Origin: Bacillota bacterium
GTDB lineage: Bacteria > Bacillota > Clostridia > Acetivibrionales > JAMNXU01
DNA length: 64,000 nucleotides
Assembly (NCBI GenBank): GCA_023623175.1
Contig: JAMNXU010000034.1
Span: forward strand, 62,001-126,000
Reading direction: 5' to 3'
The stretch's first letter is position 1. Each line of letters opens with the position of its first letter. Both the position numbers and the translations under genes were made by a program. The notes below the pieces were generated by a model that was not told the origin of the DNA, did no database searches, and was given only the letters and a program-made list of their open reading frames with translations. Positions 18,099 to 46,656 of the stretch are shown here, in pieces.

Positions 18099-18753
18099 AC
18101 AGCCCCCTGCTTTTGAAACCAGTGCTCATATGCACAGGAATCTGATAAAATCATTTTTCAAATCATTTGGAAAATAAGCGGTCCATTTTCTTCATCTGTT
18201 TTTATTGTTTAATATCATATAACAAATAACCGCGTATAACAAGGATGTCTCATACAAAACGCACACTCCTGCCATTTCCCTGTAAAACCGGCCTGCTGTT
18301 GACGGAGCAAAAGGAATATTTATATAATTATTTTTGTTTATGCATTGATGTTTGCGGAAAAGTATATTTATTTTATGCAAAATGCCGATGCACTGATCGT
18401 TAGTTTCAGAAAATATCGGTTGACAGCAACTCTTTTGCATTATTAATAAATGTTTTAATAAATATTTTGTTTAACAGTTACAATATTGATATTAAAACAT
18501 TATATGAAAACATTACAGGCCGGGTGATTTTACTGCAAAAACGAAATTTGCTTTAATGGTCCGTTCGTTTGAGACGCAAGGCGAGACGTTGCTGATTTCA
18601 ACGGATCTTTGCAAATTGAGTTTTTGCAGGAAAATCATCAACATTTATAAATTAAGATTGAATTTGAAAAGAACAATCCGGCAAAAGCGCTTTGGTATTT
18701 TGAACAAGTTTTTGTAAAACACAAATTACAGGATATTTTTCAGGAGATATATT
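18099..18753. other. 655-bp intergenic region with a palindromic element
   Basis: AT-rich DNA between divergent genes. The part up to 18480 contains only weak frames without ribosome binding sites. The 115-bp element at 18524-18638 sits in the middle. The promoter of the metallophosphoesterase gene must lie in the last 100 bp, but I see no convincing -35/-10 pair. Confidence 0.6.
18524..18638. repeat. 115-bp element with 28-bp imperfect inverted ends, copy 1
   Basis: The left end starts GTGATTTTACTGCAAAAAC and the right end is its near-complement (GTTTTTGCAGGAAAATCA...). 24 of 28 terminal positions match. An inner pair GGTCCGTT / AACGGATC allows the whole element to fold into one long hairpin. 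The centre has the short direct repeat GAGACG...GAGACG. A shortened second copy is at 36025-36107. It encodes no protein. The form is that of a MITE or a structured RNA. Confidence 0.75.
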
Positions 18754-23998: not shown

Positions 23999-24181
23999 TC
24001 GCTCTACCTCCCTTGGCCGGATTAAGGATAAAAGCATTTATGGTTTAGTATACCATTTTATTTTGATTTTCTGTATAATGTTTTGCCTGATATCAATTTT
24101 TGATTTTGCCGCCAAAGCGAAATTTGATTATTAAAGATGAGCTGCAAAAACCAGCCGCCGGGCCGCAGCTCGAAACGCGGA

Positions 24182-35921: not shown

Positions 35922-36024
35922 ACCGACATATACCTCCCGTCCGTGCCGTCAAGCCGCAGCGTCGAAAACGATTCGCAGGCCGGATGCCCGCAAAAGGACC
36001 ACTCCTGGTGCAGGAGGCGCGTAT

Positions 36025-36107
36025 GTGATCCTTCCGTTTGAGACGCGAGGCGAGACGCTGCTGATTTCAACGAATCTTTGCAAATTGAGTTTTTGCAGTA
36101 AAATCAC
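36025..36107. repeat. 83-bp shortened copy of the palindromic element, copy 2
   Basis: From TTTGAGACG on, the sequence follows copy 1 (18524-18638) with about 90% identity and ends GTTTTTGCAGTAAAATCAC. The left end retains only GTGAT; about 30 bp of the left arm are deleted. TAT flanks both ends and may be a target-site duplication. It lies between the membrane protein and rRNA methyltransferase genes. Confidence 0.75.
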
Positions 36108-46410: not shown

Positions 46411-46440
46411 TAAACGTGTTCCCCCCCATTAAATCCTGGT

Positions 46441-46499
46441 TTTCCTGTAAAAACTCTTTGAAAAGATTTTATATAGTCTGATTTCGTTTTTACAGGAAA
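46441..46499. repeat. 14-bp perfect inverted repeat upstream of the AGE gene
   Basis: TTTCCTGTAAAAAC (46441-46454) and GTTTTTACAGGAAA (46486-46499), separated by 31 bp. It lies 31 bp upstream of the AGE-family start, where an operator would be expected. Confidence 0.6.
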
Positions 46500-46656
46500 T
46501 ATCAATCCTGCAGCAAAAATTCTGCATGCATAACTCCTGCCCATATTGATTAATGCTACCTGTAAATGAACCTGCTGACTGCCATAATTAATCTGTTTAA
46601 TCCTGCCTGCAGGTCCATCCTGTCCGGGTCAAATACAGCCAGAATTGACTAAAATT

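Follow-up and report, generated by a model that had tools for sequence, protein, structure and literature searches.

A MITE-like relative of the TwoAYGGAY RNA in a Bacillota genome carries paired GGA loops that may serve as CsrA sites

The genome of Bacillota bacterium GCA_023623175.1 (2.85 Mb in 39 contigs) contains two related palindromic repeats within the 64,000-bp stretch analysed here (C26:62001-126000; referred to below as the window), which raises the question of whether they represent a chance duplication, a transposable element or a structured RNA, and what such an element might do for its host. The first-pass annotation had taken the first repeat for an element of 115 bp and the second for a deleted copy beginning at 36025. 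A search of the host genome with the 115-bp sequence showed that, compared with the window repeat, other copies have about 100 additional bases between the left arm and the right part, and the alignment of the host-genome copies yielded a parent element of 214 bp with 27-bp terminal inverted repeats. The 214-bp consensus matched about 30 places in the host genome at E ≤ 0.001, comprising copies and fragments of the element, which refutes the reading of two copies produced by a chance duplication; ten host copies are near full length, with 76-96% identity to the consensus. Both window repeats are worn derivatives of this parent, neither of them full length, and the window holds two further remnants:

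18524-18639, plus strand: copy 1, an internally deleted derivative in which consensus 1-33 is fused directly to 134-215
18525-18551, plus strand: left terminal inverted repeat of copy 1, TGATTTTACTGCAAAAACGAAATTTGC
18611-18638, plus strand: right terminal inverted repeat of copy 1
24101-24175, plus strand: fragment from the left end, 83% identical to consensus 2-75
35945-36106, plus strand: copy 2, consensus 53-214, without the left 52 bases (consensus 1-52)
35975-35991, plus strand: hairpin 1 region of copy 2, GCAGGC-CGGAU-GCCCGC, with GGA at 35982-35984
36008-36020, plus strand: hairpin 2 region of copy 2, GUGC-AGGAG-GCGC, with GGA at 36013-36015
36080-36106, plus strand: right terminal inverted repeat of copy 2
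46437-46504, plus strand: 68-bp derivative, hardly more than the two terminal inverted repeats

Copy 1, which was correctly located (18524-18638/9, with inverted ends of about 28 bp), lacks the 100 internal bases 34-133 of the consensus; it has kept both terminal inverted repeats and lost both GGA hairpins, and its RNA folds at -48.6 kcal/mol (z = -5.3 relative to shuffles). The extent of 115 bp is accordingly that of a deletion derivative rather than of the element itself. For copy 2, the shared centre and right end were rightly recognized, but the left limit moves from 36025 to about 35945, as the copy has 80 bases on its left side that are absent from copy 1; its core scored 114.7 bits (35935-36071) with a covariance model built from the host-genome copies (R1). 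The original observation was therefore real in part and truncated relative to the true element. The element is without coding capacity, the longest stop-free frame in the host copies being 51-70 amino acids, and a search for an internal promoter or terminator gave nothing convincing. In the Rfam scan of the window, a T-box leader (RF00230; 33751-34006, minus strand, 116.5 bits) was the sole family above the cut-off, with no match at the repeats and none to the CsrB model RF00018.

Among 119 related genomes, a clear relative of the element was found only in G011 (same order, other family, Clostridia). This relative is 207 bp long, with the same ends as the host element (TGATTYTACTGCAAAAAC) and a largely different interior, and is present in roughly 100 copies, of which at least 40 were scored; the end pattern of the terminal repeats gave 220 matches in G011. 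Scanning named genomes with the right-end pattern placed 18 of 20 matching stretches in the metagenome-assembled genome of Clostridia bacterium isolate SKW22, evidently the same as G011, and the other two, single matches in unrelated taxa, were read as chance. A scan of genome contigs with the GAGACG-centre pattern gave no match outside the host genome, and weak one-off matches in G005, G060 and G105 were set aside as chance or isolated scraps. Many G011 contigs (for example C4, C18, C28, C95, C112 and C118) end in or beside a copy, so that the assembly appears to break at the element and the true copy number is probably higher.

Mobility of the element was assessed from the flanks of the 33 copies that have both ends. 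Exact 4-bp target duplications were present in 11 of them compared with 0.78 expected from shuffling the right flanks among copies (0 of 5,000 shuffles reached 11), and no excess of exact flank matches was found at 2, 3, 6, 8 or 9 bp. The signal comes mostly from G011; the host contributes two of its ten copies (L033 and L034, with AATA and TTTA). Because intact copies carry 4-bp target duplications, the host and G011 elements are non-autonomous, MITE-like transposable elements, and the earlier suggestion of a MITE holds for the intact parent with its terminal inverted repeats; the TAT suspected at copy 2 does not qualify as a target duplication, since the left end is missing there and the duplications of intact copies are 4 bp long. 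Furthermore, G011 holds forms of 90-107 bp without the whole apical part, one of them with the exact duplication GATA, so that movement appears to require the ends alone.

An autonomous element with the same ends, which the first-pass annotation had proposed to look for, was not found with a transposase in either genome: the end-pattern scan of the host genome gave no widely spaced pair of matching ends, and two widely spaced end pairs in G011 enclose housekeeping genes with no transposase among the matches listed. Otherwise the scans of the host genome, G011 and G054/G035 returned only pairs about 200 bp apart. Bacterial MITEs, such as the RUP, ERIC and Correia elements, are likewise small and non-coding, with terminal inverted repeats, a target duplication, many intergenic copies and internally deleted forms. 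The present element differs from bacterial MITEs in general in its 4-bp duplication, in having no identified parent transposon and in an interior that forms a conserved, covarying, RNA-like fold of two hairpins across genera.

This fold was determined with RNAalifold from ten host copies (alignment A1) and 24 G011 copies (A2). Both alignments fold alike, with a basal stem of about 50 pairs formed from the two halves of the element, followed by two adjacent hairpins. Pairs altered on both sides numbered 17 in A1 and 14 in A2 relative to shuffle means of 6.2 and 5.8, none of 500 shuffles reached these counts, and the signal disappeared when the partners were slid by 1-3 columns; the counts are inflated by shared subfamilies and are taken as supportive rather than as a probability. 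The check for covariation of the stem was thus positive, and the structured-RNA alternative raised at the outset also holds for the intact parent. Covariation extends into the ends: at one and the same position, five copies have C-G or U-G in place of A-U. In A1 and A2, both ends of single copies change together (for example TACTGC/GCAGTA and TCCTGC/GCAGGA), as though each inverted repeat served to correct the other or a hairpin constrained both.

In both consensus sequences, the GGA of each apical loop has an unpaired probability close to 1, and all remaining GGA triplets are paired; the two loop GGAs are spaced 31 nt apart in the host and 27 nt in G011. Of the 24 G011 copies, 23 have ANGGAN as loop 1, with an invariant GGA and all four bases at both N positions, and loop 2 reads CAGGANG in most copies, with GGA changed to CGA in seven of the 24. 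In the host, nine of ten copies have CGGAU or UGGAU in loop 1, and AGGAN or UGGAG is found in loop 2 in the same proportion (9/10); in the most diverged host copy (L041) both loop motifs are lost.

The two-hairpin fold leads to TwoAYGGAY (Rfam RF01731; Weinberg et al. 2010, PMC2864571), which is listed in Rfam as a cis-regulatory RNA and belongs to clan CL00106 together with CsrB. Like the host element, TwoAYGGAY has a long basal stem and a neighbouring pair of hairpins whose apical loops contain GGA; its loops are AYGGAY, whereas those of the host are CGGAU and AGGAN and loop 1 of G011 is ANGGAN. The RF01731 model found no match in the host genome and scored the G011 copies at 30.9-47.1 bits, several of them above the cut-off of 43. 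We therefore compared the elements through covariance models built from the cores only, with the ends excluded, one from the host genome (R1) and one from G011 (R2). R2 matched seven host copies over the full model length (53-61 bits, E-values of 1e-13 to 1e-15), gave a weak score with the truncated copy 2 of the window (16.8 bits) and also matched loci of TwoAYGGAY in other genera (24-105 bits); reciprocally, R1 scored the G011 copies at 42-58 bits. Escherichia coli csrB was matched by neither model, and Rfam matches to STnc50, mir and snoRNA families at high E-values were dismissed as chance.

As judged from these model scores, the host element belongs with TwoAYGGAY as a divergent, mobile relative, the kinship running through the G011 relative of the same order. 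The initial statement that no named family has this sequence needs amending to that extent, and it stands insofar as Rfam's own model finds no host copy. Under stricter filters R1 matched the host genome alone among 58 genomes of the order, indicating that the host branch is narrow; TwoAYGGAY itself is present in 29 of the 58, in many of them in multiple copies. In over half of 22 TwoAYGGAY loci the inverted repeats outreach the Rfam model, above the shuffled control, and the ends of these inverted-repeat elements differ between genera; in G054, for example, at least seven such elements, each about 200 bp long, are bounded by TTTTAGTGTCAAAYGAC. TwoAYGGAY as described in Rfam is an RNA, whereas here it is seen as a mobile element whose terminal inverted repeats lie outside the Rfam model.

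What the paired loops might bind is suggested by a motif survey of 2014, in which TwoAYGGAY was proposed to bind CsrA (PMC4333381). The target loop of RsmE is ANGGAN, the repeat of CsrB is CAGGA(U/A/C)G and the distance bridged by a CsrA dimer is 10-63 nt (PMC7652899). Like CsrB, CsrC, RsmY and RsmZ, the element carries GGA in hairpin loops; loop 1 of the G011 relative has the RsmE consensus, loop 2 of most G011 copies resembles the CsrB repeat, and the spacing of 27-31 nt falls inside the range of the CsrA dimer. RNAs of the CsrB type gather many sites at one locus, whereas the element has two sites in dispersed mobile copies with no promoter or terminator recognized. Loop 1 of the host (CGGAU) lacks the A that CsrA/RsmE prefers two bases ahead of GGA.

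To evaluate the co-occurrence with CsrA, we used 393 class-wide Clostridia genomes with a completeness of at least 90%; within the host's order, csrA is nearly universal and provides no contrast. TwoAYGGAY was detected in 35 of these genomes and CsrA in 135; 33 of the 35 TwoAYGGAY genomes have CsrA relative to 12 expected (Fisher P = 8e-15, with relatedness, genome size and motility uncontrolled), as do all 25 genera with TwoAYGGAY (9.3 expected) and all 14 families. In the two TwoAYGGAY genomes with no csrA found (G215 and G331), the congeners have csrA, and the absence is possibly due to assembly gaps.

The host genome has one csrA (89 amino acids), which directly adjoins fliW and lies near a flagellin gene. 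The leader of the host flagellin (L134, G000:C3) contains the hairpin GGGAA-AGGA-UUCCC upstream of a ribosome-binding site with GGA (AAGGAGG); a CsrA target of this leader-hairpin type is known in Bacillus (PMC7652899), and the flagellin leader is, by this resemblance, a likely CsrA target, so that the host probably uses recognition of GGA loops. The 9-mer GGCCGGATG of element hairpin 1 recurs further upstream in the same leader.

Taken together, the element is in our view probably a divergent MITE of the TwoAYGGAY type, with an RNA that offers a binding site to a CsrA dimer. Its mobility, fold and kinship with TwoAYGGAY are observed, and CsrA binding, the best-supported function, is inferred from the loop sequence, spacing, fold and phyletic pattern. 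CsrA would occupy both loops of a GGA-strand transcript simultaneously, and transcribed intact copies would thus provide dispersed CsrA sites that may act as decoys in the manner of CsrB; alternatively, an insertion could place a CsrA target inside any transcript that receives it. In the window, copy 1 should be inert because both hairpins are lost, and copy 2 retains both predicted GGA hairpins.

It appears rather unlikely that the element is a MITE and nothing else, with a fold that arises as a by-product when a transposase copies a long palindrome, GGA loops that are functionless in the host and CsrA irrelevant, despite several observations that agree with such an account. The ends alone seem enough for movement, as indicated by the hairpin-less G011 derivative with the GATA duplication, and copies decay with their loops included, as in L041. 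In the host copies, G-U mismatches are as frequent as A-C mismatches, which gives no sign that the GGA strand is selected there; in G011, G-U is favoured (P = 0.02-0.05). In addition, the GGA strand is mostly not co-transcribed with host genes: with flanking genes called by simple ORF picks, 10 of 18 host copies have it antisense to both neighbours and no copy has it in the sense orientation to both (sign test P = 0.002), and in G011 the counts are 7 versus 7, with no strand bias toward neighbours. Read-through in the host would consequently give mostly the strand without GGA loops, which is ill-suited to abundant read-through decoys. The bias may reflect selection against sense insertions, which would suit an active RNA, or a bias of insertion. 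Against the by-product account, the GGA at the loop core is kept in the 24 G011 copies while the neighbouring loop positions vary freely, genera with differing ends and stems share the two-loop architecture, and occurrence is almost entirely confined to csrA genomes.

Another improbable account is that the hairpins work on behalf of the element: transposition would be controlled by CsrA or the transposase acting on its RNA or hairpin DNA, and any effect on the host would be incidental. The tie of the family to csrA genomes would fit, as would the many tested Clostridia TwoAYGGAY loci that also lie within longer inverted-repeat elements, but a target duplication is found on the derivative without both hairpins and no autonomous partner is known that could reveal such control. 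A stand-alone structured regulatory RNA (an sRNA or a leader) that became repetitive by duplication rather than transposition is very improbable: the strong covarying fold and the cis-regulatory class of TwoAYGGAY in Rfam would be expected of it, yet it is contradicted by the 4-bp target duplications, by terminal inverted repeats that run to the element ends and are all that derivatives keep, by copies that sit between unrelated genes in several orientations, and by the roughly 100 copies in G011. The literature on CsrA gave no report linking it with MITEs or transposable elements.

The divergent TwoAYGGAY-type MITE with a probable CsrA site bears on an RNA family that has had no assigned function since its description in 2010 (PMC2864571). 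The family is indicated as mobile, by members residing in inverted-repeat elements and by target duplications in two genomes, and is extended to a branch missed by Rfam; its near-exclusive occurrence in csrA genomes provides independent, testable support for the proposal of 2014. More tentatively, TwoAYGGAY and the host branch could possibly constitute a class of transposable elements that disperses CsrA-binding RNA modules in Clostridia, as mobile decoys or CsrA-response elements, and thereby a Gram-positive counterpart of CsrB where FliW is the sole recognized antagonist. If CsrA binding is true, a transposable element would spread docking sites for a global RNA-binding regulator, offering a route to rewire or titrate a post-transcriptional network.
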